Shown here piece after piece: positions 9,807-39,641 of a DNA stretch of 64,000 nucleotides (position 1 is the stretch's first letter; the number at the start of each line of letters is the position of its first letter). The translations under genes were made by a program, and so were the position numbers. Under the pieces are notes generated by a model. That model made no database searches, was not told the DNA's origin, and saw only the letters and a program-made list of their open reading frames with translations. Origin of the DNA: Lachnospiraceae bacterium (GTDB lineage Bacteria; Bacillota; Clostridia; Lachnospirales; Lachnospiraceae); the NCBI GenBank assembly GCA_031280955.1, contig JAITGA010000027.1:1-64000 (forward strand), in the 5' to 3' direction.

Positions 9807-10946
9807 ATGAGTTATCAAATCAATTTCAACGAACCGCCAATCGGCAAAAACTCCCTCAAGTACATCGAGGAAGCGATAAACAACAAAAAAATCAGCGGTG
9901 ATGGCGAGTTTACCCGCCGCTGTCACGAGTGGTTGGAGCAAGAGACAGATGCGGTTAAGTGTCTGTTGACCACTTCATGTACACATGCTTTGGATATGAG
10001 TGCCATCCTATGTGGTCTGGACGAGAGTGCAGAGGTAATCATGCCCTCATACACATTCACCTCCACCGCCAATGCCTTTGTCCTGCGGGGGGCAAAGATA
10101 GTCTTCGTGGATATTCGCCCCGACACCATGAACATCAATGAAAAGTTGATTGAGGAAGCCATAACTCCACGAACCAAGGCGATAGTCTGTGTTCACTACG
10201 CCGGGGTCAGTTGTGAAATGGATACAATTCTGGCGATAGCGGCACGGCATGGGTTGATGGTGATAGAAGATGCTGCCCAGGGAATTATGAGTTCATATCA
10301 CGGCAAACCATTGGGGGCAATCGGTGATTTGGGCTGTCTTAGTTTTCACGAAACGAAGAATTTCAGCATGGGTGAGGGTGGGGCATTGCTTTTCCGTGAG
10401 GACAAATTGGTGCAGAGTGCGGAGATTATCAGGGAAAAGGGAACAGACCGTGCTCGCTTCTTTCGCGGTGATGTGGATAAATATACTTGGCAAGACCACG
10501 GCTCGTCTTATCTGCCTAGTGAGCTAAATGCCGCTTATCTCATGGGACAGCTGGAAATGGCAGCAGAGATTACTGCTAATCGGATGAAAAGTTGGCAGCA
10601 ATATTATCAGGGATTAACGGAACTAAGCGAAGCGGGGTATATCTCATTGCCATATATACCCACCCATTGCTCTCACAATGCCCATATGTTTTATCTCAAA
10701 ACCAAGGGGCTTGCGGAGCGTTCGGCATTGATAGCTCATCTGCGCAATGCGGGAATCCTGAGTGTGTTCCATTATATCCCGCTTCATGACGCTCCCGCCG
10801 GAAAAAGGTTTGGACGTTTTCATGGCATCGACCGCTACACGACGGTCGAAAGTGAGCGTTTGCTGCGTTTGCCGCTCTACTATCAGTTGAAGGCGGAGCA
10901 AGTAGAGTATATTATTGAAAAAGTAAGGGATTTTTACTTGGGGTAA
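9807..10946 (+). CDS. wecE: dTDP-4-amino-4,6-dideoxygalactose transaminase
   Basis: A 379-residue PLP enzyme of the DegT/DnrJ/EryC1/StrS family that closely follows E. coli WecE (RffA) over its full length: SGDGEFTRRCHEWLEQ, EVIMPSYTFTSTANAFVLRGAKIVFVD, RPDTMNI, VHYAGVSCEMDTI, EDAAQGIMSSYHGKPLGAIGD, and SFHETKNFSMGEGGA with the PLP lysine in HETKN. It converts dTDP-4-keto-6-deoxyglucose into dTDP-4-amino-4,6-dideoxygalactose, the Fuc4NAc precursor in enterobacterial common antigen. Here it implies a 4-amino-4,6-dideoxyhexose in the surface glycan. The matching N-acetyltransferase and dTDP-glucose genes are not in the window. AAAGGAGTTTC precedes the ATG. Confidence 0.93.
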   Translation: MSYQINFNEPPIGKNSLKYIEEAINNKKISGDGEFTRRCHEWLEQETDAVKCLLTTSCTHALDMSAILCGLDESAEVIMPSYTFTSTANAFVLRGAKIVFVDIRPDTMNINEKLIEEAITPRTKAIVCVHYAGVSCEMDTILAIAARHGLMVIEDAAQGIMSSYHGKPLGAIGDLGCLSFHETKNFSMGEGGALLFREDKLVQSAEIIREKGTDRARFFRGDVDKYTWQDHGSSYLPSELNAAYLMGQLEMAAEITANRMKSWQQYYQGLTELSEAGYISLPYIPTHCSHNAHMFYLKTKGLAERSALIAHLRNAGILSVFHYIPLHDAPAGKRFGRFHGIDRYTTVESERLLRLPLYYQLKAEQVEYIIEKVRDFYLG

Positions 10947-10950
10947 TGAT

Positions 10951-12816
10951 ATGAAACGGTTTGGTAAGTTATCGTCCACACATGAGAACCTCGTTTTGGC
11001 AGTCATTTTCTGCATATTATTAATTGCTGTTATAGCTGTTCGTTATGGATTTTATTATGCCCTCAATGATGATTCTTTGATCAAAGACATTTCCGCAGGA
11101 ATATATACCGGCTCTCCCGAGAGCCGCAACATCCAAATGCACTACCCGGTCAGTGCCTTGTTGGGTCTCCTTTATCGTATTCTGCCGCTAGTTCCGTGGA
11201 GCGGTGTCTTCCTCATTGCTTGTCATTTCACCGCTCTTTTCCTCATTGTCCGTCATGGACTGGTTTTTTATGGAAAAAGGGGGCAAAAAATCACCTTTTT
11301 GATAGTCATGCTCGGTCTCACCATTGCTACCATGTTGGAACACCTCGTTTTCATCCAGTATACAGTCACATCGGCAATGCTGACGGCGGCAGCGGCTTTT
11401 TGCTTCCTTACCCGCCATCAAAGAAATCCATCTTTACCCTCCCCACAGGATGAACCCGTATTAGCCGTAAACACAGCAGAAAAAACTGCCCTCCCGAAAA
11501 GTACCGTTCTGGCTTTCATCAGGTTCAATATCCCTGTTATCGTCCTTGCTTTCCTCGCTTTTGTAATCCGTTGGGAAATGCTCTTGCTTACGCTTCCCAT
11601 GCTTGGTGTTGCCGGACTATACAAATGGCAGCAGGAGGTTATTGTTTTTTGCAAAGTGAATTTCCAAAAATACTTTGCCCTCTTCGGTATCATCGTTGTT
11701 TCTATTTTCGTTGGTCATTTGCTTCATGTACTGGCATATAGCTCACCTGAATGGCGGCAGTCGATGGCGTTTTTTGACAACAGGGTAGAGCTTTATGATT
11801 ATCAGTTCATCCCTCGCTATGATGAACATGCAGACTTTTATCAAAGTGTCGGTATGACTGCCGGAGAGGTTAGGTTGCTTACGAACTACAACTTCGGGCT
11901 TTCTGACATTATTGACGAAGACATTCTCGCTAGTGTCGCTGCCTATGCCCGTACTTTGCGGGGAACGCAGCAGGGTTTCGGAGAACGGCTCAGTGAAGCG
12001 GTACAGCTATATCTTTATAATCTTCGCAGTAGCGGTGAACACGGCGATTTCCCTTACAACAGTTTGGTTATCATCGGCTATACGGCATTGTTGGGTTTCG
12101 GTATCATCGGCGGCAGACTGGGGCGCATGGTATTTTCGCTCTCTTTGTTGGCTGCCACCAGAAGCGCATTGTGGTTATATATCATCTATGGCGGTCGTTT
12201 TCCCCTGCGGATAAGTCACTCGCTTTATTTCGTGGAAATCAGCATTTTATTGGCGATGGTGTTGTTGGAAGTACGTTGCTTTTCTAAGGAACGTGCAGAT
12301 GATAAAGAAATAGCTTTGGTAGGTACTAAAATTAAGACCGCTTATCCCGTTATCATCACCGTTATTACCCTCATGATTATCATTGCCGCTGTTCCTGCTT
12401 CCATGAGGTCGGTTGCCGCTGAGTATGACGAACGTGAACAAATCAACACTACTTGGAACGCCATGCGTGACTACACCCGCTCCCGCTCTGACAGCTATTT
12501 CTTTATTGATGTCTATTCATCGGTAATATATTCGGAAAAAGTGTTTGAAAAGCTTCCCCCCCGCCCTGCCAATTACGATATCATGGGTGGTTGGGCAAGC
12601 AAAAGCCCTTTGTATCAAAAAAAGATGAACCACTTTTTCCCATTAGGACATAGTATGCGGAGTGCCATTGCCGACCTAGAGCATGTCTACTTTTTGTGCG
12701 ACCAGCGTTTTTCCGTGTCGTGGCTGATTGCGTATTACCATGAACATGGACGTGAGGTGACGATCGAGGCGGTTGATATAATTGACGAACGGCTGATTGT
12801 GTATATGGTTAGGTAG
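10951..12816 (+). CDS. Large polytopic membrane protein, glycan operon (GT-C-like)
   Basis: A 621-residue protein with many hydrophobic segments through ~residue 475 and a soluble C-terminal portion of ~140 residues. The first loop holds YALNDDSLIKDISAGIYTGSPESRN, an acidic motif where GT-C glycosyltransferases carry their catalytic residue. The overall plan matches the gene at 7952-9769, and both flank or lie near wecE. They may be paralogous lipid-sugar-dependent transferases. Function is inferred only. It starts 4 bp after wecE and is followed by a terminator hairpin. Confidence 0.6.
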   Translation: MKRFGKLSSTHENLVLAVIFCILLIAVIAVRYGFYYALNDDSLIKDISAGIYTGSPESRNIQMHYPVSALLGLLYRILPLVPWSGVFLIACHFTALFLIVRHGLVFYGKRGQKITFLIVMLGLTIATMLEHLVFIQYTVTSAMLTAAAAFCFLTRHQRNPSLPSPQDEPVLAVNTAEKTALPKSTVLAFIRFNIPVIVLAFLAFVIRWEMLLLTLPMLGVAGLYKWQQEVIVFCKVNFQKYFALFGIIVVSIFVGHLLHVLAYSSPEWRQSMAFFDNRVELYDYQFIPRYDEHADFYQSVGMTAGEVRLLTNYNFGLSDIIDEDILASVAAYARTLRGTQQGFGERLSEAVQLYLYNLRSSGEHGDFPYNSLVIIGYTALLGFGIIGGRLGRMVFSLSLLAATRSALWLYIIYGGRFPLRISHSLYFVEISILLAMVLLEVRCFSKERADDKEIALVGTKIKTAYPVIITVITLMIIIAAVPASMRSVAAEYDEREQINTTWNAMRDYTRSRSDSYFFIDVYSSVIYSEKVFEKLPPRPANYDIMGGWASKSPLYQKKMNHFFPLGHSMRSAIADLEHVYFLCDQRFSVSWLIAYYHEHGREVTIEAVDIIDERLIVYMVR

Positions 12817-12948: not shown

Positions 12949-13023
12949 CGGGGTGTGGCTCAGTTTGGCTAGAGTGCCTGGTTTGGGACCAGGAGGTCGC
13001 AGGTTCGAATCCTGTCACCCCGA
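12949..13023 (+). tRNA. tRNA-Pro (TGG)
   Basis: Acceptor CGGGGTG pairs with CACCCCG; anticodon stem CCTGG/CCAGG with loop TTTGGGA gives anticodon TGG; T-loop GGTTCGAATCC is present. CCA is not encoded. Confidence 0.95.
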
Positions 13024-13046
13024 GTGAGTGAGCCAAGGGATTATTA

Positions 13047-13117
13047 GCGGGTGTAGTTCAATGGTAGAACACTAGCCTTCCAAGCTAGACACGTGGGTTC
13101 GATTCCCATCACCCGCT
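13047..13117 (+). tRNA. tRNA-Gly (TCC)
   Basis: Acceptor GCGGGTG pairs with CACCCGC; anticodon loop CTTCCAA gives TCC; T-arm GTGGGTTCGATTCCCAT is present; discriminator T. Confidence 0.95.
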
Positions 13118-13199
13118 TTCATCTAGGGTGGGTATCACCCTAGTTGAAAGCGAGTGATGTTCACCCGGTACTGATATAACGGGGTCTCCCGACAACCGT

Positions 13200-13273
13200 G
13201 TGCTCGTAGCTCAGCAGGATAGAGCAACGGCCTTCTAAGCCGTAGGTCGGGGGTTCGAATCCCTCCGGGCACG
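13200..13273 (+). tRNA. tRNA-Arg (TCT)
   Basis: Acceptor GTGCTCG pairs with CGGGCAC (one G-T pair); anticodon loop CTTCTAA gives TCT; T-loop GGTTCGAATCC is present. Confidence 0.95.
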
Positions 13274-13290
13274 AGGAAGCAAGTTAATAT

Positions 13291-13365
13291 GGTGGGTATA
13301 GCACAGTTGGTTAGCGCGTCAGATTGTGGTTCTGAAGGTCGTGGGTTCAAATCCCATTACCCACC
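13291..13365 (+). tRNA. tRNA-His (GTG)
   Basis: Acceptor GTGGGTA pairs with TACCCAC. An encoded extra G at 13291 faces the C discriminator, the histidine identity signal. Anticodon loop TTGTGGT gives GTG. Confidence 0.95.
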
Positions 13366-13397
13366 CGAAAAGCGATGAAGTCCACGGCGCTTCATAA

Positions 13398-13469
13398 TGG
13401 GCTATCGCCAAGCGGTAAGGCACAGGACTTTGACTCCTGCATTCGCTGGTTCAAATCCAGCTAGCCCAG
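13398..13469 (+). tRNA. tRNA-Gln (TTG)
   Basis: Acceptor TGGGCTA pairs with TAGCCCA; anticodon stem CAGGA/TCCTG with loop CTTTGAC gives TTG; discriminator G. Confidence 0.95.
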
Positions 13470-13477
13470 TAGTAGTT

Positions 13478-13644
13478 CAACTCCGCCTTAGCGGAGTTGA
13501 CGCGCGAGTAGCTATGCTGCCGAGCAACTCTGTTGCTCTACGCATCCCCCGCCGGAGGCTATATCTCAGAGGGAGATTGGACTCCACGGAGACAAAGTGC
13601 CAGAACTCCCCTATAGAGGTGGGGTCATCTCCCTCTGAGATATA
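13478..13644. repeat. Three-hairpin GC-rich island inside the tRNA cluster
   Basis: Between tRNA-Gln and tRNA-Lys three perfect inverted repeats stand in a row: CAACTCCGC/GCGGAGTTG (13478-13486 / 13491-13499), GAGCAAC/GTTGCTC (13522-13528 / 13532-13538), and an 18-bp pair at 13560-13577 / 13627-13644 enclosing 49 bases. The last ends 1 bp before tRNA-Lys. No target duplication is obvious. The other tRNAs are separated by 18-82 bases, so this is an insertion or a built-in structured spacer. Confidence 0.6.
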
Positions 13645-13645
13645 A

Positions 13646-13718
13646 GAGCGTGTAGCTCAGCTGGTAGAGCACTTGACTTTTAATCAAGTGGTCCTGGGTT
13701 CGAATCCCAGCACGCTCA
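13646..13718 (+). tRNA. tRNA-Lys (TTT)
   Basis: Acceptor GAGCGTG pairs with CACGCTC; anticodon stem CTTGA/TCAAG with loop CTTTTAA gives TTT; T-loop GGTTCGAATCC is present. Confidence 0.95.
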
Positions 13719-31755: not shown

Positions 31756-34002
31756 ATGAAAAACCGTGAATATCACGCCCGCCTCGACTACTCTAGATTA
31801 ATTGCCGCTCTCATGATAGTGGGTATTCATACTTATCCGCTGTCATCTGTTAGTGAAGAGTTGAATTTCTATATTACTCATGTTTTTGCCCGAATTGCCG
31901 TGCCGTTCTTTTTGATTACCACGGGATATTTTCTACTGCCGCTCTACTTTACAAGTGAGGCAAAAAACAAAGAGCCGTTAAAGAAATTTATCAAAAAAGT
32001 AGGGTTGTTATACGCAGGAGCAACACTCCTTTACCTACCTGTCAATATTTATGCCGGACATTATGCTGATGGTAATGTACTTTGGGATTTGATCAAAATT
32101 ATTGTTTTTGATGGAACATTTTACCATTTATGGTATTTTCCCGCTTTGATTGTGGGGGTGTTACTGATTTATCTGTTGAGCCGCAAATTCTCAATCCGAG
32201 TAGTTGGAATAATAACAGGACTTTTATATCTATTGGGTTTACTTGGTGACAGTTATTATGGAATAACAATTCACTTGCCTTTCCTTGATACAGTTTATAC
32301 GGCTATGTTTTCATTATTCTCATATACTCGTAACGGACTTTTTTATACACCAATATTTCTTTTGATGGGGGTGGTGATAGCGACTTGGAAACAACGCCCG
32401 GGTAAAATGACAAGCTTCATCGGTTTCATGATATCCATGCTTGTTATGCTGAGCGAGGGAGCTATTCTTCACCGTACACAATCCCCACGTCATGACAGTA
32501 TGTATATTGCCCTGATTCCTTGTGTTTTCTTTCTTTTTTGCTTTCTTCTCTCACCAAGCAAAGGGGTCAAAACCCATCGGTCAAGCAGAAGTATAGGTGC
32601 ATTTGTGTGTAACCCACATATCCGTGATATTTCCTTGTGGATATATGTTTTACATCCGTTTATCATTGTGCTAGTTCGTGGTGTTTCCACCATCACAGGG
32701 TTTACATCTATATTAGTTGAAAATAGTGTCATCCATTACCTCATGGTTTCTCTGTTGTCGTGTGTATCATCTATAATGATGGTATTTTTATTAAGTAAAT
32801 TGAAATCGATCTCAACTCACCACCCCGATGAAACCAAGAACCCCGACAAAACTAGGGCGTGGATTGAACTTGATCTCGAAAATCTGCGCCATAATATTTC
32901 TATCCTGCGTGAGAAGATAGAGGCAGCAGCTTCCCACCCAACTCCCCGCCTCATGGCGGTGGTTAAGGCAAACGCTTACGGACATGGAGCGGTGAGAGTT
33001 GCCAATGAATTGAACAAAAACGGTATTTTTGCTTTTGCTGTCGCGACAGTATCTGAGGGAGTGGAGCTTCGCAAACACAAAATAAAAGGAGAAATTTTGA
33101 TTTTGGGATACACTCACCCGACTCAGTTTTACTTGCTGAGAAAATATCGTTTACTCCAAACAGTCATTGATTATAACTATGCCCAGAAGTTAAACGAATA
33201 TGGGAAACAAATTTCAAAGAAACAGGTTTTTGTTCATATAAAAGTAGACACAGGCATGAATCGACTAGGCGAACGCTCAGAAGACATCGACAGGATTATC
33301 GGGATTTTTCAACTTCAAAACCTACAGATATGCGGTATATACACTCATTTGAGTACTTTAGATAGTCATGAGGAGAAAGAGAGGGTGTTCGTAAAGCAGC
33401 AAGCAGACGAGTTTACAAGGGTTTTGTCGCAAATAAAAGAATATGGTTATACTATTCCCCCACGACATTTGCTAACCAGTTATGGAGTTTTTAATCATCC
33501 CGATTTGATGGGTGATTATGCCAGAGTGGGGATTGCCCTTTATGGAATGTTGAGCAGGCAGGAAGATACTGACACATATAACACAGGACTTCGTCCCGTC
33601 ATGTCGTTGAAAGCAAGGGTTAGTGCGGTAAAAATGCTTCCCGCCAACGCCACAGTAGGTTATGGGTTTTCATTTAGAGCTATGAAAGAGATGAAAATAG
33701 CGATTATATCTATCGGCTATGCTGATGGAATCCCCCGTTGCTACTCAAGCGATGGCAGTCTTTCATGCGGTAACGGTTATGTATTGGTAAATGGACATAA
33801 AGCTCCGACTCTGGGGAATATCTGTATGGACATGATGATAGTCGATGTTAGCGAAATAGACGATGTAGACCAAGGCGATATAGCCGTTATCATCGGCAAA
33901 TCCGGCGGGTTGGAAATAACTGCTTGTGAAATAGCGGCGCAAACGAACACCATCGCCAATGAAATTCTTAGTCGCTTAGGGGAGAGGTTGGCGAGGTGTT
34001 GA
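31756..34002 (+). CDS. vanT: Membrane serine racemase VanT
   Basis: A 748-residue fusion: N-terminal acyltransferase-3-like membrane domain (~1-365; LDYSRLIAALMIVGIHTYPL, ten or so hydrophobic segments) and C-terminal alanine-racemase fold (~380-748). PLP lysine is K404 in MAVVKANAYGHGAVRVANEL; later HIKVDTGMNRLG, GIALYGML and GNICMDMMIVDVS. The position that is Tyr in ordinary alanine racemases (TINYE) is Asn735 here (TIANEIL), the change reported for VanT serine racemases. It supplies D-Ser to VanG. Slightly longer than described VanT proteins (~700-715). AAGGAAATAAA precedes the ATG. Confidence 0.9.
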   Translation: MKNREYHARLDYSRLIAALMIVGIHTYPLSSVSEELNFYITHVFARIAVPFFLITTGYFLLPLYFTSEAKNKEPLKKFIKKVGLLYAGATLLYLPVNIYAGHYADGNVLWDLIKIIVFDGTFYHLWYFPALIVGVLLIYLLSRKFSIRVVGIITGLLYLLGLLGDSYYGITIHLPFLDTVYTAMFSLFSYTRNGLFYTPIFLLMGVVIATWKQRPGKMTSFIGFMISMLVMLSEGAILHRTQSPRHDSMYIALIPCVFFLFCFLLSPSKGVKTHRSSRSIGAFVCNPHIRDISLWIYVLHPFIIVLVRGVSTITGFTSILVENSVIHYLMVSLLSCVSSIMMVFLLSKLKSISTHHPDETKNPDKTRAWIELDLENLRHNISILREKIEAAASHPTPRLMAVVKANAYGHGAVRVANELNKNGIFAFAVATVSEGVELRKHKIKGEILILGYTHPTQFYLLRKYRLLQTVIDYNYAQKLNEYGKQISKKQVFVHIKVDTGMNRLGERSEDIDRIIGIFQLQNLQICGIYTHLSTLDSHEEKERVFVKQQADEFTRVLSQIKEYGYTIPPRHLLTSYGVFNHPDLMGDYARVGIALYGMLSRQEDTDTYNTGLRPVMSLKARVSAVKMLPANATVGYGFSFRAMKEMKIAIISIGYADGIPRCYSSDGSLSCGNGYVLVNGHKAPTLGNICMDMMIVDVSEIDDVDQGDIAVIIGKSGGLEITACEIAAQTNTIANEILSRLGERLARC

Positions 34003-34036: not shown

Positions 34037-34065
34037 TTGACATCACTCCCATTACATGATACAAA
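34037..34065 (+). promoter_or_regulatory. aspS promoter
   Basis: TTGACA (34037-34042), 17-bp spacer, TACAAA (34060-34065). The context GGTTGACATCACT is identical to that at the rpmG promoter. Confidence 0.5.
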
Positions 34066-34090
34066 AGGATATTATAAGGCAGGTGCAAAA

Positions 34091-35830
34091 ATGGGAAAAT
34101 ATCGGACACATCATTGTAATGAATTAAAGAAATCTGATGTCGGGCAAAATGTCCGGCTCGCCGGTTGGGTTGATACCATCCGTGATCATGGCGGAGTCGT
34201 CTTCATTGATTTGCGTGACCATTACGGAATAACCCAGATAGTTGTCAATGACAGTACTCTACTGGCGGATATCAACAAGGAGTCAGTCATTTCTGTGGCA
34301 GGGCTTTTGCGGGAGCGGGCAGCCGAAGCCGCCAATCCCAAGCTTGCGACCGGAGAAATCGAGTTACAGGCAGAGAGTATATCTTTACTCGGTTCATCGC
34401 TCAACCAATTACCTTTCGAGATTGGCGATTCGAAGATAACTCGTGAGGATATACGCCTCAAATACCGTTATCTTGACCTTAGAAACCCTGAGGTTCACAG
34501 GAATATCATCATTCGCTGTGAGATAGTTAATTATCTGCGCAAAAAAATGCGTGAACTAGGCTTTTTGGAAATTCACACTCCGATTTTGACCTCGTCATCA
34601 CCGGAGGGTGCGCGTGATTATCTCGTACCCAGCCGCAAACATCACGGCAAATTTTATGCTTTGCCGCAAGCACCGCAACAGTTCAAACAGCTCTTGATGG
34701 TATCGGGTTTTGATAGATATTTCCAAATCGCTCCTTGCTTCCGTGATGAAGATGCCCGTGCCGACCGCTCACCGGGCGAGTTTTATCAGCTTGATTTTGA
34801 GATGGCTTTTGCCACCCAAGAGGATGTTTTCACGACAGCGGAAAATGTGCTTTACGATACTTTCTTTCATTTTGCTCCCGAGAAGAAGATTAGCCCTGCT
34901 CCTTTTGTCCGCATCCCTTATGCGGAAGCGATGATGAAATACGGCAGCGACAAGCCTGACCTTAGAAATCCCCTTATTATCGAGGATTTGACTGGTTTCT
35001 TCGCCGATGTTGATTTCGCACCTTTTCGTGACAAGCCTGTTCGTGGGATAGCCATTGACTGCACTGGTCAACCGAACTCTTTTTATGACAAAATGAACGC
35101 ATTTGCTGTAGATATCGGCATGAAAGGGCTAGGTTACATCACTGCCAAGGAAGCGATGACTCTCAAAGGACCGATAGTAAAATTTCTGTCAACCGCGAAG
35201 CAAGCAGAGTTAATAGAGAAGTTTTCGCTGCAAGAAAACATGGCAGTCTTTTTCATATCAGACAGCATAAAGCAAGTAAATGGTTTTGCGGGACAGATTC
35301 GTGCGGAGTTAGCAAAGAGATTGGATTTAATTGAAAGCGACTCTTATCAGTTTTGCTATGTTATTGATTATCCGATGTATGGAATCAATGAGGATAGCGG
35401 AGCGATTGAGTTTACCCACAATCCCTTTTCGATGCCGCAAGGTGAAATGGATGCCTTATTAAACCTTGACCCATTGGAAATCAAGGCTTATCAATACGAT
35501 ATCGTTTGCAATGGTGTGGAGCTTTCATCAGGTGCGGTTCGTAACCATCGTCCCGATGTGATGGTCAAAGCCTTTGAAATAGCCGGGTATACCCGGGAAG
35601 ATATCGAAACGAAGTTTTCGGCGTTATTTAATGCCTTTCATTATGGTGCGCCGCCTCATGCGGGGATGGCTCCCGGTCTTGACCGGATTGTCATGCTTCT
35701 GACGGGACAAGAAAGCATCCGTGAAGTCATCGCTTTCCCTCTCAATAGTAACGCCGAGGATATCCTGATGGGAGCCCCCGGCGAAGTGACGGAACAACAG
35801 TTGCGGGAAGTGCATATAAAAGTGCGTTAG
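34091..35830 (+). CDS. aspS: Aspartyl-tRNA synthetase (bacterial type)
   Basis: A 579-residue class II synthetase: OB-fold anticodon domain (LAGWVDTIRDHGGVVFIDLRDHYGITQIV), motif 2 region (FQIAPCFRDEDARADRSPGEFYQLDFEMAF), a GAD insert, and motif 3 (GMAPGLDRIVMLLTGQESIREVIAFP). The start at 34091 aligns with the family; the preceding in-frame ATG lies inside the promoter. With gatCAB converging on it, a non-discriminating role (Asp-tRNA-Asn for amidation) is possible but cannot be read off directly. The stop overlaps the gatB stop by a few bases on the opposite strand. Confidence 0.94.
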   Translation: MGKYRTHHCNELKKSDVGQNVRLAGWVDTIRDHGGVVFIDLRDHYGITQIVVNDSTLLADINKESVISVAGLLRERAAEAANPKLATGEIELQAESISLLGSSLNQLPFEIGDSKITREDIRLKYRYLDLRNPEVHRNIIIRCEIVNYLRKKMRELGFLEIHTPILTSSSPEGARDYLVPSRKHHGKFYALPQAPQQFKQLLMVSGFDRYFQIAPCFRDEDARADRSPGEFYQLDFEMAFATQEDVFTTAENVLYDTFFHFAPEKKISPAPFVRIPYAEAMMKYGSDKPDLRNPLIIEDLTGFFADVDFAPFRDKPVRGIAIDCTGQPNSFYDKMNAFAVDIGMKGLGYITAKEAMTLKGPIVKFLSTAKQAELIEKFSLQENMAVFFISDSIKQVNGFAGQIRAELAKRLDLIESDSYQFCYVIDYPMYGINEDSGAIEFTHNPFSMPQGEMDALLNLDPLEIKAYQYDIVCNGVELSSGAVRNHRPDVMVKAFEIAGYTREDIETKFSALFNAFHYGAPPHAGMAPGLDRIVMLLTGQESIREVIAFPLNSNAEDILMGAPGEVTEQQLREVHIKVR

Positions 35831-37269
35831 TTGGCTCGCCTCTTTAGCTCTGCCCTCAGCATCTCATTTACCGTTTTGGGATCGGCTTTGCGTTCTGCTT
35901 TCCTCATTACCTGACCCACGAGGAAGCCATAGGCTTTTTCATTACCGCCGAGGTATTCAGCGACAGAGGCGGCGTATTCGCTCATCACCTCATCAATTAG
36001 ACGAGTGATGAAACTGCTGTCGGTAATACTCGCAAGCCCGTGAGCGGCGATATATTTCTCGGGGTCAATATCATCAGCCAATATTTTTACCAGAATTTCC
36101 TTACCTATCGTGCGGTTAATCACGCCTTGGTCAACCAATGAAATCAGCTTGGCAAACTTTTTACTATCAATACTGATATCGTCTTCACCCTTGTTGTCAC
36201 CCTTGGCAACACTAAGCAGCTCAACCATAATCCAGTTGACAACATCCTTTGGCTTGGAAAAATCACGCAAGGTCTCGTCGAATATTTGTGAAAGTGCTCT
36301 GCTGCCGGTGATGATACGGCTGTCATAATCACTAAGCCCCATTTGCGTGGTCATGCGGGTGTATTTGGCTTCTGCTGATTCGGGCAAAGAGGCACGGACA
36401 CTATCGATCCATTCATCGCTAATCGTAATCGGCAGTAGTTCGGGATTGGGGAAATAACGGTAATCAGCGGCATCTTCTTTGTCCCGCATCGCCACAGTTA
36501 TCCCTTTGCCATCATCCCAACGGCGGGTTTCCTGTATCAACTCGTTTGACCCGCTCTCCAGCGCATCAATATGCCGCTCTGACTCATACTCAATGGCACG
36601 GGTTATTGCTCGCAGTGAGTTCATATTCTTGATTTCAGTACGAGTGCCAAAAGTCACATCGCCGACCTTGCGGACCGAGATATTGACATCACAGCGCATC
36701 GACCCCTCCTGCATTTTGCAATCAGATATTCCCGCAAAGGACAAAAGAGAGCGCAGTTTTTCCAGATAAGCGACTACTTCCTCGGCAGAGCGGAAGTCGG
36801 GGTTGGTGACAATCTCTGCCAGCGGTACGGAAGCACGGTTAAAGTCAACCAACGTTGCCCCGGCGACGATATCATGAACGAGCTTGCCGGCATCTTCCTC
36901 GATGTGGATTTGCTTGAGGGTAATGCGGCGTGTTGCCGTAGCGGTTTTGATATCGAGCCAACCATTTCGGCATATCGGGGCAAACATTTGTGTTATCTGG
37001 TAGCCACCGGGCAAATCAGGATAAAAATAGCTTTTTTTATCAAAGGTCATCGTTGCCGCAATTTCGCTGTTAGTCACCAAAGCAGCGGCGATACCAAGCG
37101 TGACGGCATGATAATTCGTTACCGCTGTCATTCCCGGCATCCCCATACAGGCGGGGCAGATGTTTTCATTGGCATCAACACCAAATGTTGTTGCACAAGC
37201 GCAAAAAAGTTTTGATTTGGTAGCGAGTTCAATATGGGTTTCCAAACCGATTACTGTCTCGTAGTTCAT
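35827..37269 (-). CDS. gatB: Asp/Glu-tRNA amidotransferase subunit B
   Basis: A 480-residue GatB: YETVIGLETHIELATKSKLFCACATTFG, NICPACMGMPG (C-A-C and C-P-A-C cysteines of the zinc-binding form), FDKKSYFYPDLPGGYQITQ, HIEEDAGKLVHD, ADYRYFPNPELLPI. It ends with the YqeY-like tail domain (NEKAYGFLVGQVMRKAERKADPKTVNEMLRAELKRR). It phosphorylates the tRNA-bound Asp/Glu and carries the amidation step. It looks fully functional. It is last in the DHH-gatC-gatA-gatB order on the minus strand. Confidence 0.93.
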   Translation of the reverse strand: MNYETVIGLETHIELATKSKLFCACATTFGVDANENICPACMGMPGMTAVTNYHAVTLGIAAALVTNSEIAATMTFDKKSYFYPDLPGGYQITQMFAPICRNGWLDIKTATATRRITLKQIHIEEDAGKLVHDIVAGATLVDFNRASVPLAEIVTNPDFRSAEEVVAYLEKLRSLLSFAGISDCKMQEGSMRCDVNISVRKVGDVTFGTRTEIKNMNSLRAITRAIEYESERHIDALESGSNELIQETRRWDDGKGITVAMRDKEDAADYRYFPNPELLPITISDEWIDSVRASLPESAEAKYTRMTTQMGLSDYDSRIITGSRALSQIFDETLRDFSKPKDVVNWIMVELLSVAKGDNKGEDDISIDSKKFAKLISLVDQGVINRTIGKEILVKILADDIDPEKYIAAHGLASITDSSFITRLIDEVMSEYAASVAEYLGGNEKAYGFLVGQVMRKAERKADPKTVNEMLRAELKRRAN

Positions 37270-37270
37270 T

Positions 37271-38410
37271 CTATCTCCGCTCTATAATCTGTAACCATGA
37301 TTCGTCCCAGGATTTTCCAATAATCTGCAAGCCGCTGTTATAGTTCCTACAGAATGTCGAGTTTGCAGGGACGGTTACGGACGGCAAACCTGAAAGGGCA
37401 GCAGGGGCATAAAGTGCCAGTTGTTCATATTTCGACTTTTCGCTCTCACTCGGCAGAACAATCATGTCGTAATCATCAAATGTAATCGACTCCTTGATAA
37501 GGCGGCGGATTTTCATTGCTTTCTCGTAATAGCTTTGGTAATTGTCCGCCGAAAGCACATATGCTCCGAGTAGTATTGCCAGTTTCGTGTCACGAGAAAA
37601 ACCCTCACTGCGGGTGTTATAGTACAAATCACGCAGATGCTGGGCGTTTTGACTGCGATGCCCGAACTTAACGCCATCAAAGCGATTGGTATTGCCGCAA
37701 AGCTCAGCGGCAGCGAGGATAAAAAGGGTCTGATGACAAACATCAAGGTATTCAAAGGGAGCAGTGCTGATTTCGTATTTAGCCGCCATGACAGAAATGA
37801 CACTAGCGTCATTTGCTTCTTCCCATATATTGGCAGGAAACCATAATCGTAGATTATTTGCGGGGCAGTCAGAAGCGTTGGCGGTAGAGTCTGTCATGGA
37901 AGCGATTGCTTTCAGGGCATCGCTTACTGAATCAGCGTCAGCCCGCATTGCTCCGTCTCTTTTGTCACTGCCGCTGATGGCAGCGAGGACTGCGAGGCCA
38001 TTTTCCGGCTTGGCACACAACACGCCGATACGGTCAAAGGAGGCGGCAGTCGCGATTAAACCGTAGCGGGAAACTGTACCATAAGGCGGTTCAAGGTAAA
38101 AGAGTCCATGTTTCGCCGCCTGCCGCTTTTTCTGCCCGAACACGTCATTAGCCAATACACAGACGTTTTCGTCATTTTTAGTTTCTATGATTGCCGGAGT
38201 GGGTTCATCGCTTTCAGTAAAGATACAGTCAAGGGCAAACTCATTCATCAAAAGCCGTCCTGTCACACTTCCTCCGACTACCGCCAATTTCTCCAGTACC
38301 GCTGCATTTATCGGTGATACGAAACCGGACAATATCTTTGAGCCCGCTGTCGCAGGCTCATTTTTTTGCATGATATTATCTTCTACGAAAATCCTTACTT
38401 TGTTTAGCAT
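37271..38410 (-). CDS. GatA homologue lacking the amidase active site
   Basis: A 379-residue protein collinear with GatA (usual ~485). Matches include VEDNIMQKNEPATAGSKIL, LMNEFALD, PYGTVSRYGLIATAASFDRIG, NRFDGVKFGHRSQN, RSEGFSRDTKLAILLGAYVLS and LSGLPSVTVP. Missing: the first ~65 residues of GatA; the catalytic Lys (GIKDNI in GatA is FVEDNI here, Glu at residue 10); and the whole GGSSGGS...SDTGGS loop with both catalytic serines. It therefore cannot hydrolyse glutamine by the known Ser-Ser-Lys mechanism. The frame is intact and sits between intact gatC and gatB, so it is maintained rather than decaying. ATG 38410 has GAGG upstream; 38422 is an alternative start. Confidence 0.8.
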   Translation of the reverse strand: MLNKVRIFVEDNIMQKNEPATAGSKILSGFVSPINAAVLEKLAVVGGSVTGRLLMNEFALDCIFTESDEPTPAIIETKNDENVCVLANDVFGQKKRQAAKHGLFYLEPPYGTVSRYGLIATAASFDRIGVLCAKPENGLAVLAAISGSDKRDGAMRADADSVSDALKAIASMTDSTANASDCPANNLRLWFPANIWEEANDASVISVMAAKYEISTAPFEYLDVCHQTLFILAAAELCGNTNRFDGVKFGHRSQNAQHLRDLYYNTRSEGFSRDTKLAILLGAYVLSADNYQSYYEKAMKIRRLIKESITFDDYDMIVLPSESEKSKYEQLALYAPAALSGLPSVTVPANSTFCRNYNSGLQIIGKSWDESWLQIIERR

Positions 38411-38425
38411 AGGAAGCCTCATTTG

Positions 38426-38701
38426 TTACGCCAGCGTTCGCGGTACTTGGAAAAATCCGTCGAATTGCTCCGGTGCGGCGGCAAGTAACTCTTGACGTGA
38501 TATAGTTTTGACGACTTGGTCTTCGCGAAAAATATTTCTCGACTCCAAAACAGAAACCATTGGCAAAGTCCCATCGGTATCCACATCGATTAGTGCTTTG
38601 AAGCTGTCGGTCAAGATATCCATGCCCGTGCTGACAAAGATTTTTTCATCCTCGCAAAGCGTGAACTTCATCATCGCCGCAAGGTTATTGATGTCTTTCA
38701 T
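38426..38701 (-). CDS. gatC: Asp/Glu-tRNA amidotransferase subunit C
   Basis: A 91-residue GatC: MKDINNLAAMMKFTLCEDEK at the start, and the conserved tail SVLESRNIFREDQVVKTISRQELLAAAPEQFDGFFQVPRTLA (family: LRxDxxxxxxxxxxLLxNAPxxxxxxFxVPxxL). GatC wraps round GatA and GatB to stabilise the complex. The start at 38701 has AGGGA upstream and gives a normal length. It is 16 bases after the DHH gene and 15 before gatA. Confidence 0.85.
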   Translation of the reverse strand: MKDINNLAAMMKFTLCEDEKIFVSTGMDILTDSFKALIDVDTDGTLPMVSVLESRNIFREDQVVKTISRQELLAAAPEQFDGFFQVPRTLA

Positions 38702-38717
38702 TTTTTCCCTGACTATT

Positions 38718-39641
38718 TCATGCCCTGCCGTTGGCTTGGTCTGATAACTCACGGAGCATATTCGGAAGTTCAGTTTCCATGTCCTCATCAGAGAACTGGC
38801 AAGTGCCGACATTGTGATGACCGCCGCCGTGGTATTTGAGCATCAGTTTTCCGACATTGACAGTTGAGGTGCGGTTTAAGATGCTGTAGCCGACTGCTGC
38901 CGCACAACCCTTGCCGCCACGACCACTGACTATCCATGCAGAAATGTTTTGCTCAGGAAACATGCTGTAAATCATGAAGCGGTTGCAGGTATAAATAAGG
39001 TCAACCCCACGCAAATCGGTGATTATCAGATTGCCATCGGTAACAGTATATTTGAGTACCATTTCTTTGAACAACTCGGTTTGTTCATGATAAATCTCAA
39101 TCCGCTCCTGTACATCAGAGAGGGCGAGGATTTCATCAGTAGTCATCACTCGGCAAGCGTCAATCAACTGTTCCATCAGCAAGTAGTTGGGAATGGTGAA
39201 GTTGCGCCAACGTCCCAACCCGGTTCGTGGGTCCATCAAATATCCTACCAGTACCCAACCCTCAGGGTTCTGAATGTCTTCATACGAAAGCTGACCGGAA
39301 TCAACTTTGTCCACCGCTTCCATCAAATCATCGAATTGGGGGAAACGCTCACGTCCGCCGTAGTATTCATAGATAATCCGGGCGCAGGAGGGGGTAATCC
39401 GGCTTTCGCCCTTAAATTCAAACTGCTTGTTACGCTCATGTTCGCTGCTATGGTGGTCAAACCAGAGTCCACAACCGGGTACGTAGGGAACATTGGCGAG
39501 GCAGTCATTTTCATCAATGGGAATCAAACCGTCTTGTAAGTCTTTGGGATGAACGAATTTCCAATGGTCAATGATACCGGCTTCTTTCAAAAGTGCGCCG
39601 CAAGCCAATCCGTCAAAGTCAGAACGTGTAATCAATCTCAT
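38718..39641 (-). CDS. DHH family phosphoesterase
   Basis: A 307-residue protein: LITRSDFDGLACGALLKEAG (DFDG motif), LWFDHHSSEHERN (DHH motif), and a C-terminal GRGGKGCAAAVGYSILNRTS, GGGHHNVGTCQF resembling the DHHA1 substrate domain. These enzymes cleave phosphodiesters in short RNAs, cyclic dinucleotides or polyphosphate; the substrate is not evident. First gene of the operon with gatC-gatA-gatB. A promoter stands 80 bases upstream. Confidence 0.82.
   Translation of the reverse strand: MRLITRSDFDGLACGALLKEAGIIDHWKFVHPKDLQDGLIPIDENDCLANVPYVPGCGLWFDHHSSEHERNKQFEFKGESRITPSCARIIYEYYGGRERFPQFDDLMEAVDKVDSGQLSYEDIQNPEGWVLVGYLMDPRTGLGRWRNFTIPNYLLMEQLIDACRVMTTDEILALSDVQERIEIYHEQTELFKEMVLKYTVTDGNLIITDLRGVDLIYTCNRFMIYSMFPEQNISAWIVSGRGGKGCAAAVGYSILNRTSTVNVGKLMLKYHGGGHHNVGTCQFSDEDMETELPNMLRELSDQANGRA

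Follow-up and report, generated by a model that had tools for sequence, protein, structure and literature searches.

A widespread GatCAB variant whose GatA subunit has lost its glutaminase site

The tRNA-dependent amidotransferase GatCAB exists in a real, selected and widespread variant without its glutaminase. We analysed one such operon in a 64,000-nucleotide stretch of a Lachnospiraceae bacterium genome (assembly GCA_031280955.1, contig JAITGA010000027.1, positions 1 to 64,000; hereafter the window), where genes for the three subunits, called here gatC2, gatA2 and gatB2, lie beside a gene for aspartyl-tRNA synthetase (AspRS). In the textbook GatCAB core, glutamine hydrolysis is coupled to tRNA amidation via a tunnel; solved structures include the canonical complexes of S. 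aureus (2df4) and A. aeolicus (3h0l) and the transamidosomes of T. thermophilus (3kfu) and P. aeruginosa (4wj3). Because the glutamine-cutting active site of GatA is lost, the complex described here likely works on ammonia from elsewhere. Judging from the sequences, it is probably an Asp-tRNA(Asn) amidotransferase without a glutaminase of its own, using ammonia made elsewhere, most likely free ammonium. Somewhat less confidently, we favour the view that a whole bacterial clade of Asp-tRNA(Asn) amidotransferases gave up glutamine, with GatA serving as scaffold and ammonia gate, asparagine being made straight from ammonium on the tRNA, AspRS being fused to GatC in some members and a GatD-like protein possibly acting as partner.

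A preliminary description of this DNA had proposed that this GatCAB lacks a glutaminase of its own and depends on free ammonia or on a separate glutaminase. This reading is supported by our data and survived the attempts at refutation reported below. Beyond that description, we report the dedicated clade of AspRS, the sister clade, genomes in which no asparaginyl-tRNA synthetase (AsnRS) was found, and the GatD-like neighbour. Its authors knew of no described GatCAB of this kind, and we found no description of a glutaminase-less GatA in the titles and abstract starts of the open-access literature, a scope outside which most subscription papers lie.

The glutaminase site of GatA is lost

The gatA2 gene (37271..38422, minus strand) encodes a 383-residue protein with the GatA fold, predicted with confidence. 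It had been described as keeping the fold, carrying Glu for the catalytic Lys in the motif FVEDNI and lacking both catalytic Ser. The alignment agrees: the Lys column holds Glu (Glu14, codon 38381..38383, minus strand; Lys in 49/49 canonical rows) and the two Ser columns hold Glu and Gln, so that the Ser-cisSer-Lys triad of canonical GatCAB is absent from these columns of the window GatA. Residues 90-102 (LANDVFGQKKRQA; 38117..38155, minus strand), which include Asp93, are a remnant of the SDTGGSIRxPAS segment. About 67 N-terminal residues of canonical GatA are missing, close to the 65 or so first estimated, and the protein scores 202 bits with the gatA equivalog model TIGR00132, below its cut-off of 481.1.

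We compared GatA proteins of at least 330 aa across loci at five glutaminase residues, K79, S154, S178, R358 and D425, in what we take to be the numbering of S. aureus GatA. All five are kept in 49/49 canonical rows. The proteins that have lost the site, called dead GatA below, fall into class 1, which resembles the window, and class 2, in which AspRS is mostly fused to GatC. None of the five residues is kept in class 1 (16/16 rows, once L139, a truncated canonical GatA mis-binned as 'dead1', is removed). In class 2, K79, S154, R358 and D425 are lost in 13/13 rows, and a Ser stands at S178 in 4/13. The Arg and Asp that bind glutamine (R358, D425) are thus lost in every dead GatA row of both classes and kept in every canonical one; their yeast counterparts are R334 and D418, according to the available part of PMC4027206.

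We then considered the 120 best-listed database relatives of each class. As these lists are ordered by similarity to a dead query, the counts show how many share the state and not a fraction among all GatA. Lys occurs in 0/120 relatives of either class, its column being occupied by Glu or Asp in 106/120 for class 1 (with 5 gaps) and 120/120 for class 2. R358 and D425 are each found in 0/120 of both, S154 in 5/120 and 0/120, and a Ser at S178 in 7/120 class 1 relatives. The Asp of the SDT motif (Asp93 in the window) is kept in all 240. Some of these dead proteins are named GatA in databases; a protein so named need not be a glutaminase.

Partial loss of the triad was seen in three full-length GatA proteins, which carry K to A (L098:1276-2730, genome G344), K to S with S178 to D (L019:1432-2871, G042) and S178 to D (L063:1435-2865, G068). 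They occupy three other positions in the GatB tree, are possibly independent events and were kept outside both classes. In G064 and G119, additional proteins resembling GatA proved to be general amidases with intact Lys and Ser, and are not GatA by score.

GatB and GatC are intact and the complexes form one clade

The reading frame, gatB and gatC had been reported as intact, and this was borne out. The frames are open; gatB2 (35827..37269, minus strand) scores 596 bits with NF004012 (cut-off 338), and gatC2 (38426..38701, minus strand; 91 aa, in a frame open to 38812) scores 47.5 bits with PF02686 (cut-off 23). All 40 canonical and all 29 dead-GatA rows keep the GatB catalytic residues E10, H12, E124, D126, K129 and E152 (numbered as in the window), and all six are present in gatB2. 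Two substitutions mark the GatB of the dead-GatA complexes and both occur in the window: R78K, in 29/29 rows (Arg in 40/40 canonical rows), and G147S, in 28/29.

We built a tree of 72 GatB rows, in which class 1 (17 rows) and class 2 (12 rows) each form one clade. The two are sisters and together make a single clade at 100/100 with no canonical row within it. GatB proteins under 400 aa, near-identical GatB and fragments or other amidases (L046, L064, L074, L129, L139, L146, L151) were left out of this tree. The genome set comprises 31 genomes, mostly drafts, 18 of class 1 and 13 of class 2; G061, G062 and G385 repeat G003, G005 and G065 (G385 by its identical GatA) and were counted once. Members come from several families of the host's taxonomic class and include one metagenome-assembled genome (MAG) of Spirochaetes; the records of the closest kin to the window's genome are Lachnospiraceae MAGs. 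The 30 best matches of a class 1 profile among 391 genomes of the class consisted of 6 class 1 proteins, 12 class 2 proteins, 1 full-length protein with K to Ala and 11 canonical ones. As only these best matches were read, at least 18 of the 391 genomes carry a dead GatA.

The dead GatA is under purifying selection

For dead GatA, the ratio of nonsynonymous to synonymous substitution rates (dN/dS) in three pairs of class 1 was 0.18, 0.12 and 0.12; of two class 2 pairs, one gave 0.28 and the other was saturated in dS. GatB gave 0.07-0.10 in four of the dead-GatA pairs, and canonical GatA 0.07 and 0.08 in two pairs. Selection constrains dead GatA, if a little less tightly than canonical GatA. 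This somewhat higher ratio in the pairs tested, together with the canonical gatA elsewhere in the window's genome, is what a decaying pseudogene or an assembly artefact could claim for itself. However, the frames are open, dN/dS lies well under 1, the fold is predicted with confidence and the same state is seen in 240 listed database proteins, so that we give this explanation almost no weight. The recurrence of the state in many genomes rules out a sequencing error. Purifying selection, and the fact that no canonical gatA was found in 25 of the 31 genomes, show that the relatives are not degenerating alongside a normal gatA. A sequencing correction and decaying homologues beside a normal gatA, the two refutations that had been envisaged, thus both failed, and a pseudogene or sequencing error was rejected.

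The operon is associated with a dedicated AspRS

In all 29 distinct genomes with both genes in view, gatB follows gatA. The fetched locus contains aspS in 28 of the 29. In 25 of these it lies upstream on the same strand, and in the window, G003 and G005 it is convergent; the fetched Spirochaetes locus showed no aspS. AspRS and GatC share one frame in 11 of the 13 class 2 genomes and are separate in G357 and G168, the earliest branches inside class 2 in the GatB tree. The GatC at the end of one such fusion scores 41.6 bits in Pfam (cut-off 23). Related CobW-like-domain proteins are encoded upstream of the dead-GatA operon in three genomes (L041:2-955, L042:3-1037, L044:4313-5647), of which the Spirochaetes one has the gene immediately ahead of gatC.

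The window aspS (34037..35830, plus strand), convergent with gatB2, scores 763 bits with NF001750 (cut-off 443) and belongs to the operon-type AspRS clade, as judged also from the AspRS tree, the motif RDHGG and alignment to 4wj3 and 1c0a. A second, standalone AspRS was obtained from 20 of the 31 genomes, and these 20 proteins split from the operon AspRS at 100/100. RDHGG is present in 26/26 operon AspRS and in the 3/3 AspRS that cluster with them and come from intact aspS-gatCAB operons; it occurs in 0/20 standalone AspRS, which have Leu (14), Lys (3), Ile (1), Met (1) or, in one case, a His in another motif. The AspRS of the P. aeruginosa transamidosome (4wj3) has RDHGG and that of E. coli RDLGS. 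We take the His of this motif to be H31 of P. aeruginosa, presumably a position diagnostic of non-discrimination.

Among the loci scanned, genes for tRNA-Asn adjoin the operon only in G058 and G168, both without AsnRS; in G058 the tRNA gene (L177:3452-3525) lies just upstream of aspS.

Other routes to Asn-tRNA and Gln-tRNA

The 25 genomes in which canonical GatA was not found include 13 of the 18 in class 1, with the 201-aa fragment of G067 and the 448.6-bit protein of G068 (S178 to Asp) scored as canonical, and 12 of the 13 in class 2. AsnRS was not found in 4 class 1 genomes, and both proteins were not found in 3 (G058, G063, G069). In class 2, AsnRS was not found in 12 genomes and both were not found in 11, of which 8 are also without AsnA or AsnB over cut-off. 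Matches to the AsnRS model of about 200-245 bits (cut-off 342.6) were counted as absent; they are putative archaeal-type AspRS. By comparison, AsnRS is present in 12 of 16 genomes with canonical GatA only (Fisher p 5e-4 versus class 2). The 11 class 2 genomes are 65-96% complete, and the chance that one gene is missing from all of them by independent gaps alone is about 7e-11. As neither canonical GatA nor AsnRS was found in them, these 11 draft genomes likely depend on the dead-GatA complex alone for Asn-tRNA(Asn), and such genomes without alternatives strongly suggest a role in Asn-tRNA synthesis. Glutaminyl-tRNA synthetase (GlnRS) was found in 12/18 class 1 and 9/13 class 2 genomes.

Canonical GatA is also present in the window's genome, G005, G338 and G018, where it might exchange with the dead subunit or feed the dead complex with ammonia. 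Such borrowing is highly improbable: no such helper was found in 25 genomes, and those in which dead GatA was the only one found have one full GatB, G002 additionally having a second GatB piece that is interrupted. That a canonical GatA of the same cell rescues the complex was on these grounds rejected as a general answer.

The preliminary description had called for a search for a second complete gatA and for asnS, asnA, asnB and glnS. In the window's own genome a second gatA is indeed present: contig C13 carries canonical gatA and gatB after a gltX whose C-terminal extension is weakly GatC-like (L006:7607-9604; 19.9 bits, cut-off 23). AsnRS was found, as were two AsnB-like proteins of 308 bits (over the 267 cut-off) and 254 bits (under it); no AsnA and no GlnRS over cut-off was found in this genome. 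Without a GlnRS above threshold, this genome probably relies on the separate canonical GatAB for Gln-tRNA, which would leave the C13 set for Gln-tRNA and the window's set for Asn-tRNA or asparagine supply. The window aspS is the only AspRS-strength match listed for this genome, which is 90% complete, and may therefore have to serve both tRNAs. The two AsnB-like genes (L162:3228-4994 and 10316-12109) lie among apparent polysaccharide genes and start without an N-terminal Cys, the residue used by glutamine-dependent AsnB.

Source of the ammonia

A GatD-like gene of the asparaginase family was found in 9/13 class 2 loci, 1/18 class 1 loci (L039, G063) and 0/22 other gatCAB loci, of which 19 have an intact and 3 a partly lost GatA (Fisher p 1e-5 for class 2 versus the others). 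It directly follows gatB on the same strand in 8 of the 9 class 2 loci. The genes are L165:7178-8257, L167:11120-12148, L168:7716-8804, L169:5570-6730, L170:10673-11749, L164:4082-5212, L182:10917-11969, L184:10261-11355 and L185:2822-3853, and in class 1 L039:299-1375. No GatD-like gene was found in the window, within about 6-7 kb on either side in class 2 genomes G207 and G325, downstream (the only side in view) in G340, or in G357, whose contig ends 134 bases past gatB. In archaea, GatD serves GatE, and the nearest solved proteins to the GatD-like proteins are archaeal GatD (2d6f and 1zq1). They retain GGT and HGTD, but 120/120 listed relatives have Gln in place of the catalytic Lys, and GatD models score under their cut-offs on the class 2 proteins.

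These data bear on whether the complex runs on glutamine or asparagine through a separate glutaminase, the GatD-like protein or another amidohydrolase docking at the lost GatA site. The linkage and the archaeal likeness speak for it, as does a formamidase/acetamidase-family gene between aspS and gatC in G058 (L177:5519-6442). Against it stand the replaced Lys, the near absence of the gene from class 1 and its absence near the operon in G207 and G325. We consider a separate glutaminase unlikely, if conceivable, and a linked one was rejected as a general answer given the single class 1 case; for class 2, the GatD-like protein is a possible ammonia partner. Free ammonium is most likely the nitrogen donor, as the simplest solution: no partner is required, and it agrees with class 1. 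In the available part of PMC4027206, NH4Cl serves yeast GatFAB as donor, and truncation near the glutaminase raised the NH4Cl-driven activity.

In several class 2 loci the GatD-like gene is followed by one for an AlaX/AlaRS-editing-like protein (L165:8254-9411, L170:11746-12912, with relatives in L164 and L167).

Proposed function

In the mechanism that we propose, the operon AspRS, whose clade and one motif predict that it is non-discriminating, would charge tRNA(Asn) with Asp. GatB, with all its tested catalytic residues present, would then activate the Asp side chain at the expense of ATP. The GatA scaffold likely holds GatB and GatC together, its old glutaminase pocket forming the mouth of the ammonia tunnel, where the Glu or Asp at the Lys column and the invariant Asp93 may attract ammonium. 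Attack of ammonia on the activated Asp would give Asn-tRNA(Asn). In class 2, the GatD-like protein encoded beside the operon may supply the ammonia, which we offer as a lead only.

Several observations weigh against this proposal. AsnRS is present in 14/18 class 1 genomes, and the window's genome has AsnRS plus canonical GatAB elsewhere, so that the dead complex may not be essential there. A second AspRS position that we presume to be diagnostic of non-discrimination, G81, is Glu, Asp or Ala in 26/26 operon AspRS, not Gly. T-box control of the operon was rejected, as no T-box reached the Rfam gathering threshold in the window or in the sets of 11, 8 and 9 loci scanned; a T-box case is reportedly known in C. 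acetobutylicum. Ser stands at the S178 column in 29/120 class 2 best-listed relatives, and the GatD-like gene in 9/13 class 2 loci could point to a separate glutaminase instead of free ammonium. The genomes are mostly drafts, which makes absences uncertain, and G063-G070 have no stated completeness. Finally, GlnRS and canonical GatA were both not found in G002, G063, G070, G119 (97% complete), G250, G325 and G340. A purely Asp-specific role does not explain this; assembly gaps, or a dead-GatA complex also serving Glu-tRNA(Gln), are possible causes.

Some of these points would suit a complex engaged in another reaction, in which the kinase of GatB or the parts that bind tRNA are used without aminoacyl-tRNA amidation: the seven genomes just listed, the AsnRS of most class 1 genomes and the clade substitutions R78K and G147S. 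However, the tested GatB catalytic residues are all invariant, the operon has a dedicated AspRS, and Asn-tRNA would have no route of synthesis in eleven class 2 genomes. We therefore regard another reaction as quite improbable and retain the ammonia-fed Asp-tRNA(Asn) amidotransferase. If this function is true, the complex, with the tunnel subunit kept and the glutaminase lost, would be a natural test of the roles of GatA besides hydrolysis; it would also tie translation's asparagine supply to ambient ammonium and show how an amidotransferase switches nitrogen donor.

Comparison with known systems

With canonical GatCAB the window shares the GatA fold, the tested GatB catalytic residues, GatC and the association with aspS known from the Asn transamidosome; it differs in lacking the triad, the glutamine-binding Arg and Asp and the N-terminal stretch of GatA, and in its distinct GatB clade. 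The intact aspS-gatCAB operons of G009, G013 and G014 have the same gene order and the operon-type AspRS with RDHGG, but their GatA keeps all five glutaminase residues. Archaeal GatDE pairs a kinase of the GatB type with a separate protein of the asparaginase family, a combination also suggested by class 2 loci. However, GatB2 scores 153 bits against a GatE cut-off of 456, class 2 keeps GatA and GatC, and the Thr-Thr-Asp-Lys site of archaeal GatD is not complete in the class 2 GatD-like proteins, whose Lys is Gln; the window has no such protein.

Ammonia-fed NAD synthetase has no glutaminase domain, whereas here a dead glutaminase subunit is kept. NAD synthetases nevertheless offer one family with glutamine-fed and ammonia-fed forms (PMC3376133, in its available part). 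Yeast mitochondrial GatFAB with a truncated GatF is similar in that NH4Cl replaces glutamine and a disturbed glutaminase side raised its use; its GatA triad is intact, however, and its use of ammonia is a bypass seen in vitro (PMC4027206, same part). Bdellovibrio, Thermus and Deinococcus make asparagine on tRNA with a non-discriminating AspRS and GatCAB beside AsnRS, an arrangement like that of the window's genome, although their GatCAB is of the ordinary glutamine-fed kind as far as the available part of PMC4206432 goes.

Neighbouring genes in the window

A DHH/DHHA1-like protein is encoded at 38718..39641 (minus strand), its gene ending 16 bases before gatC2. It scores 18 bits with DHHA1, below the 25.9 cut-off, and shows DHH and GGGHHN motifs by eye. 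At 31756-34002 lies a gene for a 748-aa protein that, by eye, seems to join a membrane acyltransferase-like domain to one resembling alanine racemase. A cluster of six tRNA genes (Pro, Gly, Arg, His, Gln, Lys) is found at 12949-13718.

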